NCBI RefSeq assembly: GCF_900637655.1
Contig: NZ_LR134384.1
Location: forward strand, 1,674,001 to 1,738,000
Origin: Segatella oris
Lineage (GTDB): Bacteria; Bacteroidota; Bacteroidia; Bacteroidales; Bacteroidaceae
Direction of reading: 5' to 3'
DNA length: 64,000 bases
Made by a program: the position numbers and the translations under genes. The notes below the pieces were generated by a model that ran no database searches, was not told the origin of the DNA, and saw nothing but the letters and a program-made list of their open reading frames with translations. This document shows, one piece after another, positions 8,650 to 62,736 of the stretch (position 1 is its first letter; every line of letters starts with the position of its first letter).

Positions 8650-10089
8650 TTATCTTCTTTCCAGCAGAACCACATTTTCAACATGTGGTGTATGTGGGAA
8701 CATATCAACCGGTTGCACAGCTGTCACCTTGTAATCTGCATCCATCAATTGCAGGTCTCGCGCCTGAGTCGCAGGGTTACAGCTTACATAGACGACACGC
8801 TTTGGTGCAGCATTCAGAATAACCTGAACGACATCAGGGTGCATCCCTGCACGTGGAGGATCGGTAATGATGACATCCGGACGCCCATGTTCATGGATAA
8901 AGTCGTCTGTAAGGATGTTTTTCATGTCGCCGGCATAAAACAAAGTGTTGTCTATGCCATTGACCTTGCTGTTTTCCTTAGCATCTTCGATAGCCTCCGG
9001 CACATATTCTATACCTATTACTTGCTTGGCCTGATGAGCCACAAAGTTAGCAATTGTTCCCGTTCCAGTATATAAATCATAGACTAATTCCTTTCCTGTG
9101 AGTGCAGCAAAGGCCCGGGCTACACTGTAAAGATGATAAGCTTGTTCGGTATTTGTCTGATAGAAGCTCTTCGGCCCAACCTTGAATTTCAGGTCTTCCA
9201 TAGTCTCATAGATGAAATCTGTACCCTTGAAAGTCGTCAGTTCCAAGTCACCGAAAGTGTCATTCCCCTTTTGATTGTCCACATAAATCAGGCTGGTAAT
9301 TTGCGGGAAAACATCTGCAATGTGCTGAAGCAGTGCCATTGCTTTCTCTTCGTCGCCCTCTTCATCATAGTGGAACTGCACCAACAGCATGAATTCCCCT
9401 GTGTTTGAATTGCGCATCATTAAGTCGCGCAGCAATCCATGTTGTGCTCTGATATCATAAAATGCAAGGTCTTGTTCCTTGGCATAACGATTTATCTCAT
9501 TTCTAATCTGGTTATGGAGATCGTCCATCAACCAGCATTTCTCAATAGGATATATCTTATCAAATGCTCCCGTGATATGGAAACCAATGGCACTCTCGTT
9601 CAAATTTCCCTCTGTTCCCTCCTCACGAGGTGGCATAGCAGCAATTTCGTCCTTGGTATACCAACGTTTATTTGCACAGCCAAACTCTAATTTGTTACGA
9701 TATTCCTTTGTTTTTACGCTTCCCATAATGGGATTAAACTCTGGAAGTGCTATCTTGCCAATGCGCGTCAGTTGGTCGTAGACTTGCTGTTGCTTGGCTT
9801 TCAACTGCTCCTCATAGGGCAGATTCTGCCACTTACAGCCACCACATATACCGAAATGTGCACACATCGGAGTCTCGCGTACCTTACTGTATTCAATCAC
9901 TTTTACGACTTTTCCTTCCATAAAACTGTGTTTCTTTCTGGTAATCTGCACATCAACGATGTCACCAGGAACACAGAACGGAACAAAGACTACTTTGTCC
10001 TCGTGATGAAAAAGACTTTTCCCTTCAGCTGCAACAGCCTCTATAGTAACGTTTTCTAAAATTGGGTATGGCTTATGTTTCCTTGTCAT
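8650..10089 (-). CDS. rlmD: 23S rRNA (uracil-5-)-methyltransferase RlmD-like (TrmA family)
   Basis: SAM-dependent uracil C5 methyltransferase acting on rRNA. An N-terminal TRAM-like RNA-binding domain covers about residues 8-65. Next come iron-sulfur cysteines C76, C82 and C85 (CAHFGICGGC) and a fourth cysteine near YPIEKCW. The SAM site is YDLYTGTGTIANF, the DPPRAGMHP loop follows, and the catalytic cysteine is in YVSCNPAT. Length is 479 residues. Bacteroidota carry several paralogues of this family (RlmD, RlmCD), so the exact uridine modified is inferred. A TAATTTTG -7 element lies upstream (10117-10110 on the minus strand). Confidence 0.88.
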   Translation of the reverse strand: MTRKHKPYPILENVTIEAVAAEGKSLFHHEDKVVFVPFCVPGDIVDVQITRKKHSFMEGKVVKVIEYSKVRETPMCAHFGICGGCKWQNLPYEEQLKAKQQQVYDQLTRIGKIALPEFNPIMGSVKTKEYRNKLEFGCANKRWYTKDEIAAMPPREEGTEGNLNESAIGFHITGAFDKIYPIEKCWLMDDLHNQIRNEINRYAKEQDLAFYDIRAQHGLLRDLMMRNSNTGEFMLLVQFHYDEEGDEEKAMALLQHIADVFPQITSLIYVDNQKGNDTFGDLELTTFKGTDFIYETMEDLKFKVGPKSFYQTNTEQAYHLYSVARAFAALTGKELVYDLYTGTGTIANFVAHQAKQVIGIEYVPEAIEDAKENSKVNGIDNTLFYAGDMKNILTDDFIHEHGRPDVIITDPPRAGMHPDVVQVILNAAPKRVVYVSCNPATQARDLQLMDADYKVTAVQPVDMFPHTPHVENVVLLERR

Positions 10090-10316: not shown

Positions 10317-10401
10317 ACAAAATGATGCAAATGACGCTGTAACTTGCGTCATATTGCGCGCTCATTTGCGTCAAATCACAGCGCAATATGCATCAAGTTA
10401 C
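10317..10401. repeat. 22-bp-period dyad array, copy 1 (rlmD/aroB gap)
   Basis: Four units start at 10317, 10339, 10361 and 10383, each a 19-bp imperfect dyad plus a 3-bp spacer. The clearest are GTAACTTGCGTCATATTGC (10339) and GCAATATGCATCAAGTTAC (10383). The array lies between divergent rlmD and aroB in a gap of about 400 bp. The rest of the gap holds A/T-rich sequence, the rlmD -7 element and the aroB promoter. Same family as the arrays at 18.4, 25.9, 31.9, 47.9 and 61.2 kb. Confidence 0.85.
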
Positions 10402-10488: not shown

Positions 10489-11538
10489 ATGATGAAAAGC
10501 AGGATTATCATATCCCAAAATATAGCAAAAGAGCTCACCGATGCCATTGCTTCGTGCCGGCACGACCGTCTTTTCATACTTACAGATGAGACTACGCACA
10601 GACTCTGTTGGCCTGTTCTGGACGAGTTGTTGCATGCACAAGAGGCGAAAGTCATAACCATTCCGGCCTCAGACACCCACAAAGATGTCACTTCACTCAT
10701 GCAAGTATGGCAGGAATTAAGCAATGGAGGTGCCACGAGACATTCTTGTCTTGTGAACCTTGGTGGTGGAATGGTGACAGATTTAGGGGGCTTTGCAGCT
10801 TCAACTTTCAAGCGGGGCATCAACTTCATCAATATTCCAACAACGCTTTTAGCTATGGTTGATGCATCTGTGGGTGGAAAGACGGGGATTAATTTCAACG
10901 GACTGAAGAATGAAATCGGCGTGTTCAATGAGAGTCGTTTCGTTCTCATTGACACGCAATTCCTGCAGACACTCGATGCAAAAAATATCTGTTCGGGATA
11001 TGCAGAAATGCTGAAGCACGGACTCATTTCTGATGAAAAGACATGGAATGAACTCATTACATTTCCGCTAATGCAGCCAGATTTGAAGAAACTTCAATGT
11101 ATGGTTGCCGAGTCTGTCAAGGTGAAAGAGCGTATCGTTGAGCAGGATCCACATGAACAAGGCATACGAAAGGCATTAAATCTGGGGCATACTTTCGGCC
11201 ATGCTTTCGAGAGTTGGGCTCTCAAGAGAAGCCCTATCCTGCATGGTTATGCCGTTGCTTTCGGACTTATTTGCGAGCTTTATCTCAGTTGTTTCAAGGT
11301 TGGTTTTCCGACAGAAAGAATGAGACAGACTGTCAGTTTCATTCGTGAAAACTATGGATATCTTCCTGTTACATGCAATGACTATGATGAACTCATTGCG
11401 CTGATGACCCATGATAAGAAGAATACAAACGGCATCATCAACTTTACGTTGTTGGGAAATATCGGTGATATCCGTATCAATCAGACGGCTACTGATGAGG
11501 AGATTAAAGAGGCATTAGATTTCTTTCGCGAGGGATAA
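10489..11538 (+). CDS. aroB: 3-dehydroquinate synthase
   Basis: Converts DAHP to 3-dehydroquinate, the second shikimate step, using NAD and a divalent metal. NLGGGMVTDLGGFAAS is the NAD-binding segment, followed by FINIPTTLLAMVDASVGGKTG. The metal-binding region includes GYAEMLKHGLISD and LNLGHTFGHAFE. Length is 349 residues, normal. Two adjacent ATGs at 10489 and 10492 give an MMKSR or MKSR start; either is possible. Its last 24 bases overlap the 3' end of menE, which is transcribed towards it. It has its own promoter. Chorismate made through this pathway feeds the neighbouring menF. Confidence 0.95.
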   Translation: MMKSRIIISQNIAKELTDAIASCRHDRLFILTDETTHRLCWPVLDELLHAQEAKVITIPASDTHKDVTSLMQVWQELSNGGATRHSCLVNLGGGMVTDLGGFAASTFKRGINFINIPTTLLAMVDASVGGKTGINFNGLKNEIGVFNESRFVLIDTQFLQTLDAKNICSGYAEMLKHGLISDEKTWNELITFPLMQPDLKKLQCMVAESVKVKERIVEQDPHEQGIRKALNLGHTFGHAFESWALKRSPILHGYAVAFGLICELYLSCFKVGFPTERMRQTVSFIRENYGYLPVTCNDYDELIALMTHDKKNTNGIINFTLLGNIGDIRINQTATDEEIKEALDFFREG

Positions 11539-17535: not shown

Positions 17536-18243
17536 TTATGAAATTCCTTTCCACCCTATTGGCACAACCGTTATCGTGCTGTCGCTGCTGTCATCATCAA
17601 TAAGTGCGAGTTGAAATCCTGTCGGTTCCCATTGCTTATTGATGATATCACAACAATGGAGAATATCTAATGTGTTATTCAACAAGGCTTTTTCTATGGT
17701 CAGATGATGCAGTTGAACACGCTTCAGACATTCAATATTCCACAAGAAATTGTCAAGTCCTTCCTTAGGATCGACACTTCGCACGACATTTGCATCGGAG
17801 AGAAGATACAGCATGCCAACACTTGAAAGTGTATCTATGTCGTTTTTCGCGTCTATCCAAAATGCCTCATAGTCAATCTCATCTTCACCTACGGTCTTGG
17901 CCTTATGTTCATAAAATGCTTGGGGATGCGCTAAACTCTCCAGAATGGTATCCATAAGTGGCTTATCATCATCTATCAATTGAATTGCAAGTGCTTCTAA
18001 TTTATCTTTATCCGTGGGGAGAGGAATAATGGTTACTTGTACTGTATCTTCTTTTTCCTTCTTCTTACCCTTCGGCAGGAAATAAGATATAAGAGGAAGA
18101 CCGAAAAGTAATGCTCCAAACGCACACAGAAGGCCCATAATGTAGTGACCTGTCTGGAATTTAGTGATTGCAGCCCATGCTGCTCCTATAGTGAAAATGA
18201 GAAGAACAAGCCATGTAATGGCGTTGGCAAAGAAATCTTTCAT
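17536..18243 (-). CDS. Membrane-anchored protein of unknown function
   Basis: A 235-residue protein from ATG 18243; an in-frame TTG eight codons upstream (18267) is possible but gives a poorer start. Two membrane segments lie near residues 8-27 and 33-54. A basic PKGKKKEKED linker follows, then a soluble domain of about 170 residues rich in acidic residues. That domain contains FWIDAKNDIDTLSSVGMLYLLSDANVV and ends with VVPIGWKGIS. I do not recognise the family confidently; the soluble part reminds me of DUF6630-like immunity or housekeeping proteins, but weakly. It lies between the menaquinone operon and a dyad array and is on the same strand as both neighbouring genes. Confidence 0.7.
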   Translation of the reverse strand: MKDFFANAITWLVLLIFTIGAAWAAITKFQTGHYIMGLLCAFGALLFGLPLISYFLPKGKKKEKEDTVQVTIIPLPTDKDKLEALAIQLIDDDKPLMDTILESLAHPQAFYEHKAKTVGEDEIDYEAFWIDAKNDIDTLSSVGMLYLLSDANVVRSVDPKEGLDNFLWNIECLKRVQLHHLTIEKALLNNTLDILHCCDIINKQWEPTGFQLALIDDDSSDSTITVVPIGWKGIS

Positions 18244-18357: not shown

Positions 18358-18508
18358 GAAATCTGTGTCAAATCACGATGTAATCTGCATCAAAACAGCT
18401 TGTAACTTGCGTCAAAATACATCGTGATTTGAGTCAAGTTACATTGTGATTTGAGTCAAGTTAAACGGTAAAGTGACGCAAAACACGACGTGATTAAACT
18501 CAAAATGA
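18358..18508. repeat. 22-bp-period dyad array, copy 2 (longest)
   Basis: Seven units start at 18358, 18380, 18402, 18424, 18446, 18468 and 18490, exactly 22 bp apart. The fourth, GTGATTTGAGTCAAGTTAC, is among the cleanest and the seventh is decayed. Spacers are GAT, CTT, ATC, ATT, ACG and GAC. The array fills half of the 327-bp gap between the POT transporter stop and the start of the unknown membrane protein. The remainder (18244-18357 and 18509-18570) shows nothing else. Confidence 0.9.
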
Positions 18509-18570: not shown

Positions 18571-20121
18571 TCAAGCTGTCATCTTATTGAGTTTCTTCAA
18601 CAGTGCAAACATTACAACCGCACTGATAAGGCAAAGTGCAATCAGAATGCCCCAGTTATACATCAGCGGAATACGGTTCCATAGCATTGAAGGGATAGAA
18701 CTGAGGTAGTTACCGATGGCAGTTGCAACGAACCATCCACCCATCATGAGGCCTTTATACTTTGGAGGTGCTACCTTGCTGACAAAGGAAATGCCCATTG
18801 GTGAGAGCAGAAGCTCGGCTAAGGTCAAGGTGAAATAGGTGGAAATCAACCAACTTGGAGAAAGAATGCTTTGGGTTTTATCCCCTAAGTCCATAGGAGA
18901 AATCAGACTGGTTGAGGCCAATGTGATGACCCCAAATCCCAATGCAGCCACTAACATACCCCAGGCAATTCGGGCCGGCGCACTTACTTCATGGCCTTTA
19001 TTGGCTAATAAACCGAAGAAAAGCATACTGAAAGGTGTGAGTGAGACGACAAAGAAAGGATTGAATTGCTGGAAGTCGGAGGGTTGAGCCATAGTTGGAT
19101 TATCCATTTGCTTAAAGAGATATAGTGCACCTCCCCATGCAAGCAATGTAACAACGCTGCAGATGACCTTGTTCTTCGTGGTTTTTGCCTGGAAAACGGA
19201 GAAGCCGGTGTAGACTGAAAGTGCTATTAAAGCAAGACTGAAGATGTTGAACCAAATGCGCATTGAGCCGGTAACAGTCAGGTCTGTATATTTCTTTGCG
19301 AAGAAAGTCAGCGCAGAACCGTTCTGATGGAAAGCCATCCAGAAGAATATCACAACAGCGAAGACCAATAATAAGGCAACAATACGATCTTTCGTCTGCT
19401 TCGGTGTGAGTTCTTCAACAGCTTGATTGGCAGCTTTTGCTTGATTGGCTGTGACGTCTGCATGCTTAAACCAACTGCGACAGACAAAATAGATTATAGC
19501 CGAAAGTATCAGTGATATGCAGGCAACACCAAAGCAAAGACCATACGCACCATAAAGGGTATGCAAATATGCAGGGTCGAAATTGCCGGCGTCATACACA
19601 AATCCATATTGACGAAGATAGATGTTCGTAATCCATTTTGCCATTGAAGGAGCGAACATAGCACCTATATTAATGGCCATATAGAAAAGACTGAAAGCAG
19701 AATCACGACTGCTTGAATATTTAGGATTATCATAAAGGTTGCCCACAAGCACTTGAAGATTGCCTTTGAAAAGCCCGGTTCCCAGAGATACGCAAGCTAA
19801 ACCGGCAAACATGGCAGCCTTACCGATGTCGTTAGCTCCTGTCGGAATAGCTAATCCAAGATATCCAAAGAACATGGTTGCAAAGCCTATCGTGACACAC
19901 TTCCCATAACCGATTTTGTCGGCTAACATGCCACCTAAAAGCGGGGCAAAGTAAACAACGGCAAGAAAAATAGCATAGACTTGTCCTGCTTGAGACTCTG
20001 TCCAGCCAAACTTAGCCTGCATAAACAATGCAAAGATGGCTAACATTGTGTAGTAACCAAAGCGCTCACCCGTGTTGGCAAGGGCTAAGGCGTACAGACC
20101 TTTCGGTTGATTTTCAAACAT
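18571..20121 (-). CDS. Proton-dependent oligopeptide transporter (POT/PTR family)
   Basis: A 516-residue inner-membrane MFS transporter for di- and tripeptides. It has the expected 12-14 hydrophobic segments and starts MFENQPKGLYALALANTGER. The family signature region is ANTGERFGYYTM, where the usual ExxERFxYY has lost its first glutamate. GGMLADKIGYGKCVTIG, GTGLFKGNLQVLVGNLY and FSLFYMAINIGAM are other POT signatures. The C-terminal half has LTLAELLLSPMGISFVSKVAPPKYKGLMMG. Amino-acid-fermenting Prevotella and Porphyromonas relatives use such carriers. The PorT-like gene ends 20 bp upstream on the same strand, so the two may be co-transcribed. Confidence 0.92.
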   Translation of the reverse strand: MFENQPKGLYALALANTGERFGYYTMLAIFALFMQAKFGWTESQAGQVYAIFLAVVYFAPLLGGMLADKIGYGKCVTIGFATMFFGYLGLAIPTGANDIGKAAMFAGLACVSLGTGLFKGNLQVLVGNLYDNPKYSSSRDSAFSLFYMAINIGAMFAPSMAKWITNIYLRQYGFVYDAGNFDPAYLHTLYGAYGLCFGVACISLILSAIIYFVCRSWFKHADVTANQAKAANQAVEELTPKQTKDRIVALLLVFAVVIFFWMAFHQNGSALTFFAKKYTDLTVTGSMRIWFNIFSLALIALSVYTGFSVFQAKTTKNKVICSVVTLLAWGGALYLFKQMDNPTMAQPSDFQQFNPFFVVSLTPFSMLFFGLLANKGHEVSAPARIAWGMLVAALGFGVITLASTSLISPMDLGDKTQSILSPSWLISTYFTLTLAELLLSPMGISFVSKVAPPKYKGLMMGGWFVATAIGNYLSSIPSMLWNRIPLMYNWGILIALCLISAVVMFALLKKLNKMTA

Positions 20122-22914: not shown

Positions 22915-25746
22915 ATGGAAAGAGAAGATAAAAACATTAATGTCTGGGGAGCACGTGTGCATAATCTAAAGAATATCGACGTGCAAATCCCTCGCAATTC
23001 ACTGACAGTCATCACTGGTTTGTCGGGTTCTGGCAAGTCATCATTAGCTTTTGACACTATTTTTGCCGAAGGACAACGTAGATATATAGAAACGTTTTCA
23101 GCTTATGCACGTAATTTCCTGGGTAACATGGAACGATCGGATGTTGACAAAATAACAGGTTTAAGCCCTGTTATCAGCATTGAACAAAAGACTACGAACA
23201 AGAATCCTCGGTCAACTGTCGGTACGACTACAGAGATTTACGATTATCTACGCTTGCTTTATGCACGTGCAGGAACGGCATATAGTTATGCTACTGGCGA
23301 GAAAATGGTAAAATATACAGAGGAGAAAGTCATTGAAATGATTACTCATGATTATGTAGATAAGCGTATTTACCTCCTTGCTCCATTGATTAGAAACCGC
23401 AAAGGGCATTATCGTGAACTCTTTGAAAGCATGAGGCGCAAGGGATATATCTATATCCGAGTAGACGGAGAGATAAAGGAAATCACGCGTGGTATGAAGA
23501 CCGACCGCTACAAAAACCATAATATAGAGGTAGTAGTCGATAAGATGCTCGTGGAAGATGTCTCTCATGAGCGCCTCGCCAAAAGTATACAAAATGCCAT
23601 GAAGCAGGGCGATGGCCTTATTATGGTATTGGATAAAGATAGCGGTGATGCCAAGTTCTTCTCTAAACGCCTTATGTGCCCGACTTCTGGAATTTCCTAT
23701 AAAGACCCCGCACCAAATATATTCTCGTTTAATTCACCAGAGGGGGCATGTCCACATTGCAAAGGATTAGGCTATGTCAACGAGATAGATCTTAAGAAAG
23801 TAATCCCCAATGACAAGATGAGTATACGCGAAGGGGCTATTGCCCCATTGGGGAAATATAAGAATCAGATGATATTCTGGCAGATAGATGCTATTCTTCA
23901 GAAGTATGACTGCAATCTCAAGACTCCCTTTGTAGATATTCCACAGGATGCTATTAATGAGATTTTATATGGCAGTCTGGAGAACTTGAAGATTGACAAG
24001 GGGCTTGTTCATACTTCTTCAGACTATTTTGTGGCCTTTGATGGTATTATTAAATACCTGCAGACCGTTATGGAAACCGACGAATCGGCTGCAGGAAAGA
24101 AGTGGGCCGATCAGTTCATGGCTACGACAGAGTGCCCAGAATGCAAGGGACAACGCCTTAACCGTGAGGCGCTCTCCTATCGCATTTGGGATAAGAACAT
24201 TACAGAGGTAGCCTGTCTTGATATCAATGACCTCAAGGAATGGCTTGAACATGTGGAAGAACACATGGAAGTTCAGCAAAAAAAAATAGCTACCGAGATA
24301 CTTAAAGAAATCCGAACGCGTGTGAACTTTCTGTTGGAAGTAGGGCTCGACTATCTCTCACTCAATCGGCAAAGTGCTACCCTTTCGGGCGGAGAAAGCC
24401 AACGTATTCGCTTAGCTACACAGATAGGAAGTCAATTGGTCAATGTACTTTATATCCTTGATGAACCGAGTATAGGTCTGCATCAACGTGACAATGACCG
24501 TCTCATCCGCTCACTCAAGGAACTGCGCGACCTTGGTAACACTGTAATTGTTGTTGAACACGATGAAGATATGATGAGGGCCGCTGACTGGATCATAGAC
24601 ATTGGACCAAAGGCAGGGCGAAAAGGTGGTGAAGTTGTATTTCAAGGGACGCCTGAAGAAATGCTTAAACAGCATACCATCACAGCTGAATATCTGAATG
24701 GTGAACGTAAGATAGAAATACCATCCGAACGTCGCAAGGGTAATGGGAAACATATAAAGATTTTCGGTGCAAAAGGAAATAATCTCAAAAATGTGGATAT
24801 TGATTTTCCATTAGGCAAGTTGATTGTTGTCACCGGAGTATCAGGCTCTGGGAAATCTACGCTTATCAATGAAACACTCCAGCCCATTCTCTCTCACCAT
24901 TTCTATCGTTCGTTGAAAAAGCCTATGCCATATGACAAGGTGGAGGGGATTGACAATGTGGATAAAGTGGTCAATGTTGACCAGAGTCCTATTGGAAGAA
25001 CACCACGCAGTAACCCTGCAACCTACACGGGGGTATTCAGTGATATTCGAAATCTTTTCGTCAACTTACCTGAAGCAAAGATACGAGGTTATAAGCCAGG
25101 GCGCTTTTCCTTCAACGTGAAAGGTGGTCGTTGTGAGGCTTGTAGCGGTAATGGCTACAAGACAATTGAGATGAATTTCCTGCCCGATGTAATGGTACCA
25201 TGTGAGGTCTGCCACGGCAAACGTTACAATCGAGAAACACTTGAAGTGAGATATAAGGGTAAATCCATTGCTGATGTGCTCGATATGACGATTAATCAGG
25301 CCGTGGAATTCTTTGAGAATGTGCCAAGTATTCTGCCGAAAATCAAGACATTGCAGGATGTAGGTCTGGGGTATATCAAGCTTGGACAGAGTTCAACGAC
25401 ACTCTCAGGTGGTGAGAGTCAGCGCGTAAAGTTAGCTACAGAACTGGCTAAGCGTGATACAGGCAAGACGCTTTATATCCTTGATGAGCCGACAACAGGA
25501 CTTCACTTTGAGGATATCCGTATTCTGATGGATGTGCTTCAAAAACTCACTGACCGTGGCAACACTGTAATTATCATTGAACACAACTTGGATGTTATCA
25601 AGTTAGCTGACTATATCATTGATGTTGGTCCTGAGGGAGGACGAGGTGGTGGAACAATTCTTACCACAGGAACACCTGAAGAAATAGCCAAGAGTAAGTT
25701 GGGATATACACCGAAATTCTTAGCTTCTGCATTAAAAAAAGCATGA
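22915..25746 (+). CDS. uvrA: Excinuclease ABC subunit A
   Basis: DNA-damage recognition ATPase of nucleotide-excision repair. It has two ABC modules: Walker [10 protein letters not shown] at residues 35-43 and GVSGSGKST at 641-649, with signature sequences [13 protein letters not shown] and [13 protein letters not shown]. Zinc-finger cysteine pairs are seen in [28 protein letters not shown] and [10 protein letters not shown]. The UvrB-binding region lies between the first Walker A and the first signature. Length is 943 residues, normal. It may share a transcript with the gliding-domain gene upstream. A 424-bp gap with a dyad array follows. Confidence 0.97.
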
Positions 25747-25931: not shown

Positions 25932-26060
25932 GTAATTCATGTCAGTTTGCATGGCAACTTGACATAGATTACACTGCATTTTGACTCAAGTTACATAGTG
26001 AAATGACTCAAATTAGTGCGTGATTCAATACAAATTATAACGTCATGTAATGACAGCTTA
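25932..26060. repeat. 22-bp-period dyad array, copy 3 (uvrA/tRNA gap)
   Basis: Units start at 25932, 25954, 25976, 25998 and 26020, with a decayed sixth at 26042. The clearest is GCATTTTGACTCAAGTTAC at 25976. It is the main feature of the 25747-26170 gap; the rest is A/T-rich sequence with the palindrome at 25822. Confidence 0.85.
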
Positions 26061-26170: not shown

Positions 26171-26248
26171 TGGTGATTCCGTTGGGATTCGAACCCAAGA
26201 CCCACAGCTTAGAAGGCTGTTGCTCTAATCCAACTGAGCTACGGAACC
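26171..26248 (-). tRNA. tRNA-Arg (anticodon TCT)
   Basis: On the minus strand a cloverleaf folds. The acceptor stem pairs GGTTCCG with CGGAATC, the D arm contains AGCTCAGTTGG, and the anticodon loop is CTTCTAA with TCT at 26213-26211. The T loop contains GGTTCGAATCC. A discriminator A and an encoded CCA end the gene at 26171. It reads AGA codons. It stands alone, in opposite orientation to its neighbours. Confidence 0.95.
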
Positions 26249-31038: not shown

Positions 31039-31812
31039 TTGAGAAAGATATATTACATATTGTTTGCAATAATGTTGCTTTGTGTGGCTTGTGAAATGAA
31101 GCTGAAATCCAACGATGATGCGCAAGACAAAATAGAAGTCGTGCGTTATGATCGTCTGCAAAGTCGTTATCTGACTACAGGTGACTTTTCTGCTTTGCAG
31201 GAAATGAACACAGAGTATGCCATAGAGACTCGAACGCTGGTTGAAAATGTGCTTAAATTGGGAGCCGTCTATGAGCCGGACATCAACAGTCGCTTTCTTA
31301 ATTTCTATCAAGACACTGTTTTACAGACTGTTATAGCAGATGTAGAAACTCAATATGCCAACATGGATGACATCAACAAGTCACTGACACGAGTTTTTGA
31401 TAAAGCCCAGAAACAATTGCCTAACTTTACTATTCCGAAGATATATACACAGATTGGTGCCTTTGACCAGAGTATAATTGTGGGTGAAAATATGATTGGT
31501 ATTTCTCTTGATAAATATTTGGGAGAGGACTATCCGCTCTATTCAAAGTATTATTCAAAGAGTCAACGTGCAACCATGAAGCGTGAGTATATTGTTCCCG
31601 ACTGCTTGAATTTCTATCTGTTGAGCCTATATCCCGTGAAGAACTTCGACAAGAAGAGTCAGCAGGAGAAAGACATGCACATGGCTCGTGTCATGTATGT
31701 GGTTAATGAACTTGTGGGACAAAAGGTTTTCTCAACTCATTATGTCAGCTTGGTAGAAGATTATCTGCAGACACATAAGGACGTAAAGTTGGCTGACTTG
31801 CTGAAATTCTAA
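31039..31812 (+). CDS. gldB: GldB-like gliding-motility lipoprotein
   Basis: A 257-residue protein with a TTG start. The TTG is chosen because it supplies the signal peptide (MRKIYYILFAIMLLCVAC) that the next ATG (31072) would remove, and a promoter ends 27 bp upstream. A lipobox cysteine lies at about C18. The GldB-family core is seen in FDQSIIVGENMIGISLDKYLGEDYPLY, then RATMKREYIVPDCLNFYLLS and ARVMYVVNELVGQKVFS. Family members are found in non-gliding Bacteroidota too, so motility is not implied. The next gap holds a dyad array and the tcdA promoter. Confidence 0.8.
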   Translation: MRKIYYILFAIMLLCVACEMKLKSNDDAQDKIEVVRYDRLQSRYLTTGDFSALQEMNTEYAIETRTLVENVLKLGAVYEPDINSRFLNFYQDTVLQTVIADVETQYANMDDINKSLTRVFDKAQKQLPNFTIPKIYTQIGAFDQSIIVGENMIGISLDKYLGEDYPLYSKYYSKSQRATMKREYIVPDCLNFYLLSLYPVKNFDKKSQQEKDMHMARVMYVVNELVGQKVFSTHYVSLVEDYLQTHKDVKLADLLKF

Positions 31813-31924
31813 GCAAGAGTTCCTTTGACATGAAGCAACAGACAGCATTGAGTATGCCTGCGTTGTGGGCTAATTCATTATAACATAGAATTAAAGCGAG
31901 AGCTAATCCCGTGCAGATAGCCTT

Positions 31925-32031
31925 GCAATTTGCGTCAAATTACCTTGCAATCTGCGTCATTTCACCGTGTAACTTGACTCAAATCACCATGTAATCTGCG
32001 TCAAATTGCAGAGCCTAATGCAACAGACTGA
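31925..32031. repeat. 22-bp-period dyad array, copy 4 (gldB/tcdA gap)
   Basis: Units start at 31925, 31947, 31969, 31991 and 32013, the last decayed; a further decayed unit may lie at 31903. Spacers are CTT, CGT, CAT and AGA. The best units are GCAATTTGCGTCAAATTAC and GTAATCTGCGTCAAATTGC. The remainder of the 378-bp gap holds the tcdA promoter and T-rich sequence. Confidence 0.85.
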
Positions 32032-32190: not shown

Positions 32191-33063
32191 ATGCAAAATC
32201 AATTTTCACGTACAGAGCTATTGATTGGCAAGCCGGCGCTTGACACTTTGGCCGGCTCACGCATAGCCGTTTTCGGCATAGGTGGTGTTGGCAGCTATGT
32301 GACAGAGGTGTTGGCACGGAGTGGCATAGGCGAATTGGATATCATTGATAACGACCGTGTCTGTCCGACGAACATCAATCGACAGCTCTATGCCCTGCTT
32401 TCAACAATAGGGAAAAACAAGGTTGATGTTGCAGAAGAGCGTATTCTTGATATCAATAGCCACTGTATTGTTCACAAAAACCAGATGTTCTATCTTCCCG
32501 AAAATGCGGATGCAATTGATTTGAAGCTGTTTGATTATGTTGTGGATTGTGTCGATACGGTGAGTGCGAAACTTGAACTTATCAAGCGTTGTCATCGTTT
32601 CAACATCCCCATCATATCCAGCATGGGAGCGGCCAACAAGCTTGATGCAACGGCATTCCGTGTGGCAGACATCAACGAAACGCATATGGATCCGTTGGCA
32701 AAGGTGATAAGAAAGAAACTTCGCAAGCTGAATATCCATCGATTAAAGGTGGTTTATAGTGAAGAAGAACCTATCAGGCAGATTGCCTATCCTACTATAG
32801 AATGTGCTGAGCATAGCCATGTACCGGCCAGCAATGCGTGGGTTCCAGCTGCAGCAGGCTTGATCATCGGAGGTGAAGTCATCAAGGATCTCATTGCGAA
32901 AGCAAAAACTATGCGTATTCTTCCCGAAGAGTCAGAAAGCAATGCGGATGCCGGAATTGCAGCTGAAAAGGCAGCACGGCATGAGGAACGGTACAAAAGC
33001 ATAGTTCAGGCAAAGGAAAACGGGATTTGGATTGATGACAAAATCGTGATCAAAACACCCTGA
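32191..33063 (+). CDS. tcdA: tRNA threonylcarbamoyladenosine dehydratase (TcdA/CsdL)
   Basis: E1-like ThiF-fold enzyme that uses ATP to cyclise t6A37 to ct6A37 in tRNA. The nucleotide loop is FGIGGVGSYVTEVLARSG, with the glycine turn at about residues 29-34. DNDRVCPTNINRQLYAL and DYVVDCVDTVSAKLELI follow, then SSMGAANKLDATAF, all typical of TcdA rather than ThiF or MoeB. The conserved ThiF zinc cysteines (CxxC pairs) are not seen. Length is 290 residues. It is followed after 24 bp by an ATP-grasp-like gene. Confidence 0.88.
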   Translation: MQNQFSRTELLIGKPALDTLAGSRIAVFGIGGVGSYVTEVLARSGIGELDIIDNDRVCPTNINRQLYALLSTIGKNKVDVAEERILDINSHCIVHKNQMFYLPENADAIDLKLFDYVVDCVDTVSAKLELIKRCHRFNIPIISSMGAANKLDATAFRVADINETHMDPLAKVIRKKLRKLNIHRLKVVYSEEEPIRQIAYPTIECAEHSHVPASNAWVPAAAGLIIGGEVIKDLIAKAKTMRILPEESESNADAGIAAEKAARHEERYKSIVQAKENGIWIDDKIVIKTP

Positions 33064-46566: not shown

Positions 46567-47430
46567 TTATTGCCCGAGGTATGCCTTAAGATTTTTATTC
46601 TTTGTGTTATGACGCAGCCGACGAATTGCTTTTTCTTTTATTTGGCGTACACGTTCACGCGTCAGACCGAATTTATCTCCGATTTCTTCAAGTGTCATCT
46701 CTGATTGGTTAATGCCAAAGAAAGCTTCGACGATGTTGCGTTCACGCTCATTCAACGACTGAAGTGCATTTGCAACTTCATCACGCAAGGACTCCTGTAC
46801 CAGCACGCTGTCAGCCATTTGAGCATTATTGTTGGGCAGAATATCCAATAAACTGTTCTCCTCTCCTTCTGCAAGCGGAGCATCAACTGACACATGTCTG
46901 CCGTTTGATTTGATTGCATCGGCCACTTTATCCTCCGGTATGTCAACTTTTGCAGCAATTTCTTCTATTGTCGGAAATTGTTCATTCTCCTGTTCAAGTT
47001 TGTTGAGAACACGCTTTATCTTATTTACCGAACCGACTTGATTCAAAGGCAGTCTGACGATACGGCTCTGCTCGGCAATAGCTTGAAGAATACTCTGGCG
47101 TATCCACCAAACAGCATACGAGATGAATTTGAACCCACGAGTTTCATCAAATTTCTCTGCAGCTTTAATCAATCCGAGATTGCCTTCATTGATGAGGTCT
47201 GGCAAACTAAGTCCTTGATTTTGATATTGCTTGGCAACAGAAACCACAAAACGCAGGTTAGCACGTGTCAGTTTCTCTAAGGCACGACGATCACCCCGCT
47301 TGATTTTCTGTGCAAGCTCCACCTCCTCTTCTACAGAAATCAGGTCTTCATGACCTATCTCCTGCAGATATTTATCGAGCGATGCACTTTCCCGATTGGT
47401 TATTGACTTTGTGATTTTCAGCTGCCTCAT
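46567..47430 (-). CDS. rpoD: RNA polymerase primary sigma factor (RpoD/SigA)
   Basis: A 287-residue group 1 sigma factor in the short Bacteroidota form: it lacks region 1.1 and the long non-conserved insert of E. coli sigma-70. Region 1.2 is [18 protein letters not shown], region 2 is [21 protein letters not shown] then [13 protein letters not shown], and region 4 is [18 protein letters not shown]. Bacteroidota sigma factors recognise the TTTG/TAnnTTTG promoters seen in this window. Its own promoter is at 47487-47456. Confidence 0.95.
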
Positions 47431-47883: not shown

Positions 47884-48012
47884 GCAATTCAAGTCATAAT
47901 GCGCTGTAATTCGATGCAGATTGCAGTGTAATCTGACTCAAGTTAGCGTGTAATCTGACTCAAGTTACACAGCGTTATGCGTCATGTTACACAGTAAGGA
48001 TTCAGACATGGG
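47884..48012. repeat. 22-bp-period dyad array, copy 5 (rpoD/ppdK gap)
   Basis: Units start at 47884, 47906, 47928, 47950, 47972 and 47994 (last decayed), in exact 22-bp steps. GTAATCTGACTCAAGTTAC at 47950 is the family's best example. It lies in a 788-bp divergent gap. The remainder of the gap holds the two promoters and A/T-rich sequence at 47490-47880 and 48015-48130 in which I see no gene. Confidence 0.88.
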
Positions 48013-48218: not shown

Positions 48219-50939
48219 ATGAGTGAGAAAAGAGTTTATATCTTCGGCAACGGTAAGGCCGAGGGACGGGCAGACATGAGGAATCTGCTTGGTGGTAAGG
48301 GTGCGAACTTAGCCGAAATGAATCTTATCGGTGTTCCAGTTCCTCCCGGTTTCACGATTACGACAGACGTATGTAACGAGTACTTTGAGAAAGGAAAAGA
48401 GGAAGTTGTCAATCTGTTGAAGAAAGATGTTGAAACTTCTGTAAAGCATATTGAGACTTTGATGAAATCAAAGTTTGGCGATGTAGATAATCCTTTGCTC
48501 GTCAGTGTACGTTCGGGAGCCCGTGCCAGCATGCCCGGTATGATGGATACCATTCTTAATCTCGGTCTCAATGATGAAGTTGTAGAAGGTCTGGCCCGTA
48601 AGACCGGCAATGAACGCTTTGCTTATGACAGCTACCGTCGCTTTGTTCAGATGTACGGTGACGTTGTTCTCGGCATGAAACCAGCCAACAAGGAAGACAT
48701 TGATCCTTTTGAGGCTATCATTATTAATGTAAAGAAACAGCGCGGCATCTCTCTTGATAACGAAATGAATGTGGATGAACTCAAGCAGCTTGTCAAGTTG
48801 TTTAAGGCTGCCATTAAGGAGCAGACCGGCCATGATTTCCCAACAGATCCAATGGAACAACTGTGGGGCGCTATCTGTGCTGTCTTTGATTCGTGGATGA
48901 ATGAGCGCGCTATTCTCTATCGAAAGATGGAAGGTATCCCTGCAGAATGGGGTACAGCGGTCAACGTTATGGCCATGGTATTTGGAAATATGGGCGAAAC
49001 CTCTGCAACAGGTGTTTGCTTCAGCCGTGATGCCGCAACTGGAGAAAATCGTTTTAATGGTGAATATTTGGTCAACGCTCAGGGCGAAGATGTTGTTGCC
49101 GGCATTCGTACACCGCAGCAGATTACCAAGGAAGGCTCTTTGCGTTGGGCGAAACAGCAGTGTATTGATGAGGAAATCCGTGCTTCAAAATACCCGTCGA
49201 TGGAAGAGGCTATGCCTGAAATCTTCAAGCAGCTGAACGATATCCAGCAGAAGCTCGAAGCTCACTATCACGATATGCAGGATATGGAGTTCACCGTTCA
49301 GGAAGGTCATTTGTGGTTCCTCCAGACCCGTAATGGAAAACGTACAGGCACGGCAATGGTAAAGATTGCCATGGACTTGTTGCGCGAAGGCGAAATAGAC
49401 GAAAAGACAGCTCTGTTGCGTTGTGAGCCAAACAAATTGGATGAACTGCTCCACCCTATCTTTGATAAGGAGGCACAAACAACTGCCAAGGTGTTGACAA
49501 GAGGTCTCCCTGCAAGTCCGGGTGCTGCTTGTGGTCAGGTTGTTTTCTTTGCTGATGATGCAGAGAAATGGCATGATGACGGACATCAGGTAATCATGGT
49601 GCGCATTGAAACAAGTCCCGAAGACCTCGCAGGTATGAGTGCTGCCGAGGGCATTCTTACGGCACGAGGAGGCATGACCAGTCATGCTGCGGTTGTTGCA
49701 CGCGGTATGGGTAAGTGTTGTGTCAGTGGTGCAGGTGCTATTAACATTAACTATAAAGCACGTACTCTTGAAATCGACGGCACACTCATTCATGAAGGTG
49801 ACTACATTTCAATCAATGGTTCAACGGGTGAAGTTTATTTGGGCGAGGTAAAAACAAAGCCGGCTGAGGTCACAGGTGACTTCGCCATGCTGATGGATCT
49901 GTGCCAGAAGCATACACGCCTTGTTGTCCGCACAAACGCAGACACGCCTCATGATGCAGAGGTTGCACATAATTTCGGTGCTGTCGGTATCGGTCTCTGT
50001 CGCACAGAGCATATGTTCTTCGAGAACGAGAAGATTAAAGCTATGCGCGAAATGATCCTTGCTGACACGAAAGAAGGCCGTGAAAACGCGCTTGAAAAAC
50101 TCCTACCTTATCAGAAACAGGATTTCTATGGCATATTAAAGGCTATGGATGGCTATCCCGTGAATATCCGTTTGCTCGATCCTCCATTGCATGAGTTCGT
50201 GCCTCATGACCTTGCCGGCCAGAAAGCTATGGCTGAAGAGATGGGCATTTCTGTGGAGGAAATCCAGCGTCGTGTAAATTCTCTGAGCGAGCATAATCCG
50301 ATGTTGGGTCATCGCGGCTGTCGTCTGGGCAACACATACCCCGAAATTACAGCGATGCAGACACGCGCAATCCTCGGTGCAGCAATTGATTTGAAGAAAG
50401 CAGGTTTCAATCCAATGCCTGAAATCATGGTTCCACTGATTGGCATTGTCAATGAGTTTGATGTTCAGGAAGATGTTATCCGCTCTACTGCAAAGCAGCT
50501 TTTTGAAAAGGAAGGCGTTGAAATCCCATTCAAAGTCGGTACGATGATAGAGATACCACGTGCTGCTCTGACAGCTGACAATATTGCCAAGAGAGCTGAA
50601 TACTTCAGCTTTGGAACCAATGACCTTACCCAGATGACATTTGGATATAGCCGTGATGACATTGCAAGCTTCCTGCCTGTGTATCTTGAAAAGAAGATAC
50701 TGAAGGTTGATCCTTTCCAGGTTTTAGATCAGGAAGGTGTAGGTCAGCTTGTTGAAATGGCTGTAAAGAAAGGTCGCGCAACCCGTCCGGAACTTAAGTG
50801 CGGTATCTGTGGTGAGCATGGTGGTGAGCCTTCATCGGTCAAGTTCTGCCATCGCGTGGGCTTAGACTATGTGAGTTGTTCTCCATTCCGTGTGCCAATA
50901 GCTCGCCTTGCAGCGGCGCAGGCAGCTGTGGAAGAATAA
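48219..50939 (+). CDS. ppdK: Pyruvate, phosphate dikinase
   Basis: Interconverts pyruvate, ATP and phosphate with PEP, AMP and pyrophosphate. The N-terminal ATP-grasp part has GGKGANLAEMNLIGVPVPPG and SVRSGARASMPGMMDT. The phospho-carrier histidine is in GGMTSHAAVVARGMG (about H489). The C-terminal PEP barrel has GIGLCRTEHMFF, FSFGTNDLTQMTFG and CGICGEHGGEPSS. Length is 906 residues, slightly above the usual 875. It is monocistronic with a strong promoter and a terminator at 50961. Confidence 0.96.
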   Translation: MSEKRVYIFGNGKAEGRADMRNLLGGKGANLAEMNLIGVPVPPGFTITTDVCNEYFEKGKEEVVNLLKKDVETSVKHIETLMKSKFGDVDNPLLVSVRSGARASMPGMMDTILNLGLNDEVVEGLARKTGNERFAYDSYRRFVQMYGDVVLGMKPANKEDIDPFEAIIINVKKQRGISLDNEMNVDELKQLVKLFKAAIKEQTGHDFPTDPMEQLWGAICAVFDSWMNERAILYRKMEGIPAEWGTAVNVMAMVFGNMGETSATGVCFSRDAATGENRFNGEYLVNAQGEDVVAGIRTPQQITKEGSLRWAKQQCIDEEIRASKYPSMEEAMPEIFKQLNDIQQKLEAHYHDMQDMEFTVQEGHLWFLQTRNGKRTGTAMVKIAMDLLREGEIDEKTALLRCEPNKLDELLHPIFDKEAQTTAKVLTRGLPASPGAACGQVVFFADDAEKWHDDGHQVIMVRIETSPEDLAGMSAAEGILTARGGMTSHAAVVARGMGKCCVSGAGAININYKARTLEIDGTLIHEGDYISINGSTGEVYLGEVKTKPAEVTGDFAMLMDLCQKHTRLVVRTNADTPHDAEVAHNFGAVGIGLCRTEHMFFENEKIKAMREMILADTKEGRENALEKLLPYQKQDFYGILKAMDGYPVNIRLLDPPLHEFVPHDLAGQKAMAEEMGISVEEIQRRVNSLSEHNPMLGHRGCRLGNTYPEITAMQTRAILGAAIDLKKAGFNPMPEIMVPLIGIVNEFDVQEDVIRSTAKQLFEKEGVEIPFKVGTMIEIPRAALTADNIAKRAEYFSFGTNDLTQMTFGYSRDDIASFLPVYLEKKILKVDPFQVLDQEGVGQLVEMAVKKGRATRPELKCGICGEHGGEPSSVKFCHRVGLDYVSCSPFRVPIARLAAAQAAVEE

Positions 50940-59588: not shown

Positions 59589-60812
59589 TTATCGCAATAA
59601 GCGATATACAACGACATCCTGTGCAGGAACCGTGAGCTTGCGGTCTACTTTCTGCTTGGTAGAAGTTTTCCCCTCCATGCGCCCTGTCCACAAGTTCTTT
59701 ACTTTATAGACACACTTATCAAAAGCTGTACTGCGTTTACTCACCTCGTCATCTGTGAAATTAAAGTCCTGCCAGTTAAGGTTACATACAATAGGTTTAC
59801 GCGTGGGGTTGAGAATAGTCATAGCCCAATCTCCATTTTCAAGAGGCTTGAACCAATAGTCCAATCCGTCACGACTGAAAAGGTGTAGTCCCTGCACACC
59901 AAGCTTATCTTGATCAATAGCAATAAGATCACGATTGGTCAGAATAGCCTTGGTTTCTGCACTCATATGGCGTATGTCGTTACCTAAGATAAGCGGACTT
60001 GCCATCATGCACCACATCGTAAAGTGTGCCCGGTCTTGGTTTACGGTGAGTCCATTACCTACTTCCAGCATATCGGGGTCGTTCCAATGCCCCGGACCGG
60101 CATAGCGACGAAGGCTGTCATTCTTGTTGATACAATCCAAAACGCTATATTGCACATACGTAGGAAATACACGTGTGGAGTCAAAAGAGCACCAAATGTC
60201 GGGCCCAATGCGCCATGAGTTTCCTATATCTCTGGCCCAACGCCAAGGTTGATTATCGCCCCACTCACACATGGAGAAAAAGATTGGACGGCCTGAAGCA
60301 CGCAAAGCATCACTCATCAGCTGATAAGCACCGCGAGGATTGATGTTTACAGTGTTGCACCAGTCATATTTTAAATAATCAACATCCCAGCGGGCATATT
60401 GCAGCGCGTCTTGATATTCGTGTCCTAATGACCCGGGACGGCCCGCACAGGTCTCTGTTCCGGCATCACTGTAAATGCCCAACTTCAATCCACGGGCATG
60501 GATGTAATCGGCCAAAGCTTTTATTCCATGGGGAAAATGCTTCGGATTAGCCTGGATAAAACCATTGGCATCGCGCTTACCATGCCAGCAATCGTCCATG
60601 TTTATATAAATATAACCAGCATCACGCAATCCACTCGACACCATAGCATCAGCAATGCCCTTGATGATGTCTTCATCAATGTTGCCCTGAAACTTATTCC
60701 ATGAGTTCCAACCCATTTGTGGTGTCTGTGACAGTTCTTCCCATTTTTGGGCTTTTGTTGCCAAGGAAAACAATGCGAATAACAGTAAGGTAATGGCGTA
60801 CTTTTTGTTCAT
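59589..60812 (-). CDS. GH27 alpha-galactosidase
   Basis: A 407-residue exported enzyme that removes alpha-1,6-galactose side chains of galactomannan. A signal peptide ends near ATKAQ. PQMGWNSWNKF and NMDDCWHGKRD begin the barrel. The nucleophile is D150 in YLKYDWCN, and the acid/base is probably D195 in RWARDIGNSW. WNDPDMLEVGN is the family signature. A C-terminal beta-sandwich ends the protein. It has its own promoter at 60884-60853, so it opens the downstream operon. Confidence 0.93.
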   Translation of the reverse strand: MNKKYAITLLLFALFSLATKAQKWEELSQTPQMGWNSWNKFQGNIDEDIIKGIADAMVSSGLRDAGYIYINMDDCWHGKRDANGFIQANPKHFPHGIKALADYIHARGLKLGIYSDAGTETCAGRPGSLGHEYQDALQYARWDVDYLKYDWCNTVNINPRGAYQLMSDALRASGRPIFFSMCEWGDNQPWRWARDIGNSWRIGPDIWCSFDSTRVFPTYVQYSVLDCINKNDSLRRYAGPGHWNDPDMLEVGNGLTVNQDRAHFTMWCMMASPLILGNDIRHMSAETKAILTNRDLIAIDQDKLGVQGLHLFSRDGLDYWFKPLENGDWAMTILNPTRKPIVCNLNWQDFNFTDDEVSKRSTAFDKCVYKVKNLWTGRMEGKTSTKQKVDRKLTVPAQDVVVYRLLR

Positions 60813-61128: not shown

Positions 61129-61235
61129 CTGACTCCTATCGAAACACGTTGTAATCTGCGTCAAGTTACGTTGCAATCTGACGCAGAACAGCGTGTAACT
61201 TGTGTCAGATTACAAGGTAAACTGCATCAAGTTAC
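61129..61235. repeat. 22-bp-period dyad array, copy 6 (inside the mannan locus)
   Basis: Clear units start at 61151, 61173, 61195 and 61217. GTAATCTGCGTCAAGTTAC opens the set, and a decayed unit precedes it. It lies in the 502-bp gap between the esterase stop and the GH27 start. The rest of the gap holds the GH27 promoter and otherwise featureless sequence. Confidence 0.85.
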
Positions 61236-61314: not shown

Positions 61315-62736
61315 CTAATCTGTCTTGAAAGGCAACAATGGCAGCCCAGCCTGGTTCTTCACATTTCCCAATTGGAAGTTATGATAACAATAGCGTACGG
61401 CAACAGGACGCGCGACATTGGGCGAAGTGAGCAGGAATGTGCTGTTGTGAATGTATTGGGCATGCGCAGGATAATAGACTTTATCCTGACCTGCAATCTC
61501 GAAGCCTTCATAAGAAGTTACGGGGACAATGCCATTATAAGTATCTTTCAGATGTACGAAACAACTGTCTCTGCGCACTTCCAACTTCTCGAAACTCGGA
61601 CTGCGATAGAAGATTTGGTCAAACCCATAGTCGCGTGCAGCGGCTGTCATTGCCAATCGTTCTCCAATCTGTCGTTTCTGACAGGGATGTATCTGCTCCG
61701 CCTCTACGGGATAAACCAAATCGTTTGTGCCTATAAGAACAGCATTACCGACGCTTTCTGCCACAGTCTGTTGCTGCATGCGTATAGATGCAGCAGCTGT
61801 ATCGAGGGCATTACCGTAACTATATGGTGCTATTTCTACAAAATAGAAAGGTAGGTTGGGAACTTTGAAATCACTGCGCCACTGGCTGATGAGTCGGCTG
61901 AGACGCTCTGCATAAGTGTTCGGATTGTGGTCGACATTGCTGCATCCCTGATAGTAAATAATGCCGCGTATGGAATAGTTGAGAATGGGATGAAACGTTC
62001 CATTGCCCCAAAGCAAGGGGCGCAGCCAGTCTGTCGGATATCTTTTAGCGATTTCTGCGGAGTCTACAGGCTCGTTGGTGTAACATTTCAGATTATCTTC
62101 GTTCAACCAACTCTCAACCATAGTTCCACCCTTATTGGCAAGGATGAGCCCAATGGGAACATCAATCATTTCATGCAAGCGGCGACCAAAGAAATAACCA
62201 ACCGCACTGCAATAATTAGCAGTGTTGGCATTCATTACTTCCCAATGACAGACAGCATCGTCCTTCGGTGTTGCACTCATCACAGCAGGTATCTTCACAT
62301 AACGCATTCCACGTATGCGCCCGGCATCAGCAATGGCGTCTTGATAACCTTCTACGGGGCACTCATAGAAACCTTGCAGGGGCATTTCCATGTTGCTCTG
62401 CCCGGCACAGACCCACACTTCTCCGGCAAGAATGCCATGCAGGGTTACGGCTTCTCCATCACTGAAGGTGATGCTGAGTGGCGTGTAACTTCCTTTAGGA
62501 GTACGGATGCGAAAGCTCCATCTACCCTCCTTGTCAGCCACAGTCGTATGACTTGGTCCCCAGGATGGTTTGATGATAACGCGTGTTCTTGGGGTAGCCC
62601 ATCCCCATAACCGTGCATCTGCCTGTTGCTGCAATACCATGTTATCGCAAAGTATGTGAGGTAATCGGATTTTTGCAGACGCAGGCAAACAAAGGAAAGA
62701 GAGGAAAAACAAGATGAGATAATAGAACTTCTTCAT
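61315..62736 (-). CDS. SGNH-type carbohydrate acetylesterase (sialate O-acetylesterase-like)
   Basis: A 473-residue exported esterase. A signal peptide ends near LPASA. The first 100 residues form a small beta-domain (LPHILCDNMVLQQQ). The nucleophile S114 lies in VCAGQSNMEMPLQG. GIIYYQGCSNVDHN is a further SGNH block, and VEAEQIHPCQK supplies the late Asp/His region. Relatives are classed as sialate esterases or as CE20/CE6-type plant-polysaccharide deacetylases; the mannan context favours the latter. It is 85 bp downstream of the GH26 gene. Confidence 0.85.
   Translation of the reverse strand: MKKFYYLILFFLSFLCLPASAKIRLPHILCDNMVLQQQADARLWGWATPRTRVIIKPSWGPSHTTVADKEGRWSFRIRTPKGSYTPLSITFSDGEAVTLHGILAGEVWVCAGQSNMEMPLQGFYECPVEGYQDAIADAGRIRGMRYVKIPAVMSATPKDDAVCHWEVMNANTANYCSAVGYFFGRRLHEMIDVPIGLILANKGGTMVESWLNEDNLKCYTNEPVDSAEIAKRYPTDWLRPLLWGNGTFHPILNYSIRGIIYYQGCSNVDHNPNTYAERLSRLISQWRSDFKVPNLPFYFVEIAPYSYGNALDTAAASIRMQQQTVAESVGNAVLIGTNDLVYPVEAEQIHPCQKRQIGERLAMTAAARDYGFDQIFYRSPSFEKLEVRRDSCFVHLKDTYNGIVPVTSYEGFEIAGQDKVYYPAHAQYIHNSTFLLTSPNVARPVAVRYCYHNFQLGNVKNQAGLPLLPFKTD

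Follow-up and report, generated by a model that had tools for sequence, protein, structure and literature searches.

Strictly phased 22-bp dyad arrays in intergenic regions of Segatella oris: a dispersed family that may form protein-bound platforms on the chromosome

Plasmid iterons and parC-type sites carry phased repeats of about 11 or 22 bp on one face of the DNA. In P. intermedia, an intergenic repeat of 188 bp, PINSR, is present in 177-184 copies; it lies downstream of tnaA, has no terminal inverted repeats, and its function and source were left open by the authors (Naito et al. 2015, PMC4755523). The passages of that paper drawn on here make no mention of a dyad structure. BIMEs, according to the excerpt of PMC2817692 used here, consist of regularly spaced REPs in alternating orientation.

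Here, we describe arrays of short dyads in a 64-kb stretch of the Segatella oris chromosome (the window) and in the genome to which it belongs (G000), a single contig of 3,168,212 bp. An initial annotation of the window had reported seven units in exact 22-bp register at 18358-18508 and five further arrays, about 31 units in all, in which each unit is a 19-bp imperfect dyad followed by a 3-bp spacer. Our profile scan confirmed the register of the seven units and recovered the same rule at the other five arrays, giving a total of six arrays and 32 units in exact 22-bp phase. The unit profile, which we symmetrised, has the consensus GTAATTTGACTCAAATTAC and carries about 13 bits per unit. The arrays, to which no strand is assigned, are the following:

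10317..10401: array of 4 dyads (score 63.5), in a divergent gap between script-called genes at 8650-10089 (minus strand) and 10489-11538 (plus strand).
18358..18508: array of 7 dyads (score 112.3), the longest of the window, in a codirectional gap between a gene at 17536-18243 (minus) and a POT-family transporter gene at 18571-20121 (minus).
25932..26038: array of 5 dyads (score 70.0), between the 3' end of uvrA (22915-25746, plus) and a tRNA-Arg gene (26171-26248, minus); this gap is tallied below as codirectional, tRNAs being absent from the gene calls used for the placement count.
31903..32031: array of 6 dyads, the outer two weak (score 83.1), between a GldB-like lipoprotein gene (31072-31812, plus) and a ThiF/TcdA-like gene (32191-33063, plus).
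47884..47990: array of 5 dyads (score 82.4), in a divergent gap between a sigma-70 family gene (46567-47430, minus) and a pyruvate phosphate dikinase gene (48219-50939, plus).
61129..61235: array of 5 dyads, the first unit weak (score 70.3), in a codirectional gap between an alpha-galactosidase gene (59589-60812, minus) and a carbohydrate-esterase gene (61315-62736, minus).

Scanning the window at a period of 22 gave these six arrays, while periods of 19, 20, 21, 23, 24 and 25 gave none and a period of 33 gave two. Thirty order-1 Markov simulations of the window yielded no array. A scan at a low threshold also found single-unit matches at 1002 and 9296, plus one in the reversed window.

The family extends over the whole chromosome. 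The seed GTAAYN6CAAGTTAC, allowing at most one mismatch, had 139 matches on both strands of the genome versus 10 for the reversed pattern, and a sequence-only four-unit model (R1) had at least 197 on both strands, with 150 of 1495 candidates scored. Compiled by hand from the match lists, the arrays of G000 amount to at least 124-125 clusters, mostly of 4-6 units, which is a lower bound because some of the copies found by their flanks (see below) are absent from the list. Every one of 26 loci of 3 kb taken around seed sites, some of them overlapping and one inside the window, holds an array of 4-9 units. When the window was combined with 40 stretches picked because they bear arrays (467 kb of own sequence), intergenic self-similarity was found at 51 places for lag 22 and at 45 for lag 44; each of the other lags from 8 to 59 had at most 5 places. 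The number of units per array has a mode of 5 (range 3-8 in 53 arrays; 9 in L013) and a mean of 5.2 over 64 own arrays. The genome-wide scan thus extended the family of the window to about 125 intergenic, strictly phased arrays.

That the arrays lie outside genes also held beyond the window: none of 53 arrays in the window and the 40 array-bearing stretches overlaps a gene called by script. All types of gap are occupied. For the 51 arrays with a gene on both sides, 32 gaps are codirectional, 10 convergent and 9 divergent; counting only gaps of at least 150 bp, in loci that were chosen for their arrays, an array is present in 30/74 codirectional, 9/21 divergent and 10/20 convergent gaps. Distances from the array to the start codon and to the stop codon are widely spread in these 51 arrays, with none fixed. 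The arrays are not evenly spaced along the chromosome (CV 1.04 vs 0.99 for random placement). Close pairs are rarer than expected, with 9 of 124 distances between neighbouring arrays below 5 kb versus 22 +/- 4 at random, and array density is mildly uneven (p = 0.02, 16 bins).

Next, we compared the units with one another. Among the 333 units of 64 own arrays, likeness within an array is 10.84 of 19 positions and between arrays 10.71, while adjacent units of one array are slightly more alike (11.38 of 19). Spacers are at background, with a likeness of 0.286 within and 0.297 between arrays. Since units are no more alike within an array than between arrays, a tandem repeat grown by slippage (minisatellite) was rejected. 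The family of phased dyads described by the initial annotation therefore stands, but its units are not equivalent. In G000 they are position-specific (leave-one-out score 6090 vs about 5250 with units shuffled), and the array has a two-fold symmetry: centres of the form TGCNTCA outnumber the reverse form 58 to 29 in the left half, and the ratio is 28 to 64 in the right half (p = 1.4e-6), and spacers are oriented inward in 128 cases vs 29. The inward polarity was not significant in four other species, and G001 and G174 have a weak positional signal or none. When the own arrays were aligned by polarity, arm columns of the central units were 72-80% identical, the middle spacer base 25-32% and the flanks 29%; these arrays were found by their motif, which favours conserved cores. 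The outer spacer bases reach 73% identity because of the inward T/A.

The initial view of the family can be extended, in that many arrays form the central part of a longer dispersed element with flanks that are also phased. In a flank comparison of the own arrays, 104 of 1139 similar pairs fell outside the arrays, and a comparison of 116 flanks with the arrays masked gave two groups, of 11 and 10 flanks, that are co-registered and come largely from the same arrays. The element is about 400 bp long and consists of an A flank of about 200 bp, five dyads, and a B flank of about 130 bp. A search with one A flank (L196:4800-5000) had at least 31 matches in the genome, with 40 of 71 candidates scored. 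After setting aside one match that lacked a locus and two that were short, we examined 28 copies. In all 28 an array starts at the flank edge, with a shift of 0 in 25 and of 1 (in either direction) in 3, and these copies carry the position-specific units. As they were retrieved by flank sequence, the presence of an array in them is not a product of the motif search.

The alignment of the 28 copies has no gapped row in columns 17-315 (299 columns), to be read with the fact that a flank search favours copies that align well and may under-sample those bearing indels. The distance from the array end to a GTTAAA in the B flank could be measured in 24 copies: it is 73 in 16 and 95 in 8, a difference of exactly 22 bp. 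Mean pairwise identity is 0.66 in the dyad arms and 0.61 in the A flank, versus 0.28 for the middle base of the spacer and 0.33 immediately beyond the element. A recent common origin alone is thus insufficient to explain the conserved columns; with near-random spacers beside conserved arms and flank, the copies look old and under constraint. The A flank itself may be built otherwise than the array, since its column conservation, which peaks at 11 bp (6.5; p = 0.004 for 10.5-11.5), is higher at 13 bp (8.3); its A/T power is also highest at 13 bp (8.4), with 4.5 at 10.5 bp.

Most arrays outside the element, including five of the six in the window, shared no flank in the 116-flank comparison. The left flanks of the L198 and L212 arrays match the 51 bp to the left of the window's array at 25932; this group, together with another formed by L200, L208 and L214, points to more than one element subfamily. 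By eye, the motif TGTTAA...TTTACAA is present in both flanks of the 28-copy alignment in direct order, and is perhaps promoter-like or a recombination site. Two copies are interrupted after the array, one by a G+C-rich hairpin repeat (L444:1266-1701) and one by a copy of a Y1-transposase element (L434). When one whole copy was used as the query, with at most 3 candidates scored per genome, G000 had at least 3 matches, and 2 of 199 other genomes of the genus had one weak match each.

We then examined relatives for the same arrangement. The transporter beside the longest array has its nearest named matches in Prevotella sp. P5-108 (86% protein identity) and HJM029 (85%). In the nearest named relatives, L027 and L028, the 39 kb examined held no array, a stretch too short to be telling. 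The own-type pattern is present at all in 20 of 200 genomes of the genus. Its matches number 242 in G000 and 108 in G001; G020 and G174 have 14 each, and none of the other listed genomes has more than 7. The unit consensus of G001 is related to that of G000, yet different. Of 398 genus genomes, 210 had matches to a letter-poor rule, (GTAA N11 TTAC N3)x2 GTAA with at most 3 mismatches; the matches run into the hundreds in G001, G174, G185, G303 and G391, where the reversed control has few. With 2 mismatches it gave 1-3 matches in 8 of 246 other genomes of the order, two of these eight belonging to the same family. Forty-six arrays from G001, G174, G083, G010 and G377 have motifs of their own in the 19+3 layout, as fitted with the period of 22 imposed; they mostly have 4-6 units, and none overlaps a called gene. 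The layout of the window thus recurs across the genus with other motifs.

In array-rich genome stretches, one of which contained a match known beforehand, self-similarity was found at 21 places for lag 22 and at no more than 4 for other lags. Genomes poor in GTAA matches had 16 places at lag 22, 6 of them scoring as dyads and one a plain CA repeat, but lag 14 was also found there at 14 intergenic places in 320 kb, so the lag-22 signal in these genomes is weak. Across loci L027-L106, lag-14 self-similarity occurs at 20 places. The reversed control (AATG N3 CATT in 22-bp phase) is very frequent in G183 (520 matches), G224, G235 and G194; these matches are probably arrays in which the other dyad is the conserved one. 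At L108:1376-1530 (G016), a near-perfect 22-bp tandem repeat with the constant spacer TCG is more like a minisatellite than like the degenerate arrays. Exact scans of viral contigs found the GTAA triple unit in 2, the reversed rule in 1 and the own motif in none, and are almost powerless because 467 kb of own genome contain 0 exact GTAA-triple and 2 exact own-motif matches.

The family is real, abundant and structured, and part of its history is that it has spread as an element. The most likely reading, which we hold with about as much belief as doubt, is that the arrays are protein-bound, phase-locked platforms with a chromosome-level role. Each array would be a platform of duplex DNA for about five side-by-side dimers of one putative sequence-specific protein, binding cooperatively, with one half-site per 11 bp and all on the same helix face. 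In at least 28 copies the platform would be the middle of the ~400-bp element, and since the flanks keep the same helical phase, the whole stretch is probably one ordered nucleoprotein structure, whether wrapped, looped or bridged. The ~125 arrays would serve the whole chromosome rather than particular genes. The elements would have multiplied in the lineage and then been held to motif and phase, and between species the letters would change while the geometry stays. Their sequence features fit a protein bound to the duplex, in line with the cooperatively binding protein put forward in the initial annotation.

An alternative that we consider unlikely is that the arrays are REP/REPIN-like, i.e. 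that a resident Y1 (HUH) transposase recognises the dyads, has spread them and is flanked by them. A Y1 transposase element of G000, together with shorter copies of it, gave 38 matches, which were grouped by hand into 11 loci:

Y1-element loci, G000: about 204, 611, 624, 643, 669, 696, 978, 999, 2644, 2662 and 3001 kb; also L289, L290 and L291.

An array lies within about 120 bp of 10 of the 11 loci and on both sides at 6, and in L290 the end dyad GCAACTCGGTACGAGTTGT at the start of the element continues the exact 22-bp register of the preceding array. In other genomes, a dyad array lies within 1.5 kb of 7 of 17 fetched Y1 loci, where about 2.3 would be expected (P ~0.009). The part of PMC6006769 used here describes Bacteroidetes Y1 subclass 2.6 as having atypical flanking structures, copies of which are present elsewhere; the Y1 proteins of G000, with the motif Y---Q--HH, fit subclass 1.2 of the same excerpt. 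Because the element is so closely tied to the G000 arrays, part of the constraint on them could be recognition by Y1. Against the alternative, Y1_Tnp does not track arrays between genomes, occurring in 13/30 GTAA-array-rich, 2/4 reverse-pattern-rich and 9/21 array-poor genomes, a class that is itself unsure since five of its members (G121, G250, G350, G347 and G025) show other lag-22 arrays. It was not found in the nearly complete G083 or in G251. In L220/L434 the ordinary A and B flanks border an array that has the element in its interior. Copies of the element are 92-96% alike, compared with about 72-77% over longer matches for the adjoining arrays. Both facts point to insertion into arrays. 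Nor do the arrays show the covariation of a hairpin (see below). We see the Y1 element as an inserter or partner of the arrays.

It is also quite improbable that only structure is read, with A/T blocks every 11 bp bending or wrapping the DNA around a general protein (HU, IHF-type or gyrase), as in E. coli BIMEs. The A/T power peak is at 11 bp in all five species measured, the B flank changes its length only by 22 bp, and motifs differ between species under a constant phase, all of which speak for such bending. However, unit motifs carry 13 to 21 bits (from small samples), a specificity that exceeds the needs of bending, and the arrays of L093 are G+C-rich. A match to the HU family was present in 16 of 16 genomes tested, weak in G185 and G303, so HU does not explain the differing motifs. 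Of 14 genomes with an HU ortholog, 4 (G000, G083, G163 and G358) have clear dyad arrays (at least 5.5 of 8) 3' of HU, and G260, G251 and G378 have weaker signals there. The two G000 arrays 3' of HU are explained by the copy of the Y1 element between them. The downstream gene is not conserved, and HU was not supported as the specific cognate protein.

We think it very improbable that the arrays are a dispersed non-coding repeat which at present has no function and whose copies are decaying. PINSR offers a precedent in the excerpt cited (PMC4755523), the G083 arrays are copies of one element, 13 of which have a common unit order, and the G000 element is a dispersed repeat as well. Decay is nonetheless hard to reconcile with 28 diverged copies free of indels over 299 columns, with length steps of exactly 22 bp, and with arms and flank that are conserved around near-random spacer middles.

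Cooperative repressors typically have tandem dyads spaced by two turns, and this spacing is what would recommend the arrays as operators of one regulon, with a transcription factor controlling the neighbouring genes. We find this reading highly implausible, as 10 of the 51 arrays lie in convergent gaps, the distance to the start codon is not fixed, and neighbours differ between species. Across six species, 9 of 102 pairs of neighbouring genes were homologous versus about 7 expected, and no gene family recurred beside the arrays. Lacking both a promoter-side placement and shared target genes, the regulon operator array was rejected.

Elements acting as RNA (terminators, hairpins, structured RNA or guide arrays) are scarcely credible: the arrays do fold well because their units are palindromic, but they are also present in divergent gaps, and neither the units nor whole arrays nor the 28-copy element showed covariation. 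Identical arms occur in 44 of 333 units versus 51.9 expected, i.e. the arms vary independently, and RNAalifold on the 28 copies gave 3 pairs, in none of which both sides had changed. The arrays folded slightly better than crude nulls, but this excess vanished when units were swapped between arrays at the same position (-0.293 kcal/mol per nt vs -0.300 for the swaps, 60 arrays), and the hairpin reading was dropped. At gathering scores Rfam found only a tRNA in the window; in five element loci it gave a tRNA and a further match that fell far short of the gathering score. Stops interrupt all six frames in 28 of 28 copies, and with neither an open frame nor a covarying pair, a protein-coding or structured-RNA element was rejected. 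In own arrays of five units, complementarity mirrored about the centre is 10.40 vs 11.19 in same-position swaps (sd 0.24), which would fit an avoidance of long inverted repeats.

Returning to the platform reading, a protein holding ~650 dyads in phase at ~125 sites would amount to a chromosome-binding system of Prevotella that the literature searched does not describe. More tentatively, the arrays may be a genus-wide Prevotella class of elements that organise the chromosome, namely ordered nucleoprotein platforms on helically phased dyads at about a hundred or more intergenic sites per genome, which may change length only by 22 bp and whose letters turn over with a fast-evolving nucleoid protein, by analogy with eukaryotic satellite DNA and the proteins that bind it. 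Specialists would be surprised by the length steps of 22 bp and by letters that change between species under a fixed geometry. Natural steps of exactly two helical turns would allow DNA phasing to be studied directly in living cells, and the motif turnover a test of joint change of a DNA-binding protein and at least 100 sites.

Among known systems, CRISPR and other guide arrays have near-identical repeats and unique spacers of at least 20 bp. Both are absent here, where units are degenerate and 19 bp long and spacers are 3 bp, in agreement with the initial annotation. For a MITE one would expect defined ends bearing terminal inverted repeats or a target duplication; the element has shared flanks and, by eye, an end motif in direct rather than inverted order. 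The BrickBuilt MITE minisatellite of Porphyromonas gingivalis, also in Bacteroidales, resembles the arrays in its intergenic tandem repeats, its 23-nt period and its leader and tail flanks; it differs, in the excerpt of PMC4596501 used, in having direct repeats that vary from 1 to 22.8 copies between strains, terminal inverted repeats and 19 loci. From phased operator or centromere arrays, the dyad arrays of G000 differ in being dispersed over ~125 chromosomal loci. With REPs, BIMEs and REPINs the arrays share short intergenic palindromes, high copy number, differences between lineages and, in G000, the tie to a Y1 element. They differ in having about five 19-bp dyads in a strict 22-bp phase, a phase-locked element and no consistent Y1 gene; unit edges are GTAA/TTAC without the GTAG or CGTC tag of REPs and REPINs, and hairpin covariation is missing.

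The kind to which the arrays belong, that of dispersed intergenic palindromic repeats, is already known. Like PINSR as described in the excerpt of PMC4755523, they are intergenic, dispersed and present in more than 100 copies in Prevotella, but those of G000 have other letters and a longer element. In G083, a genome of two contigs with tnaA present, an array lies downstream of tnaA, and a rough alignment of the 13 copies has ~160 common columns (158) versus the 188 bp reported for PINSR in that excerpt. Judging by the tnaA position and the published description, the arrays of G083 are probably PINSR and PINSR is probably a 22-bp dyad array, in which case the repeat would gain a structure.
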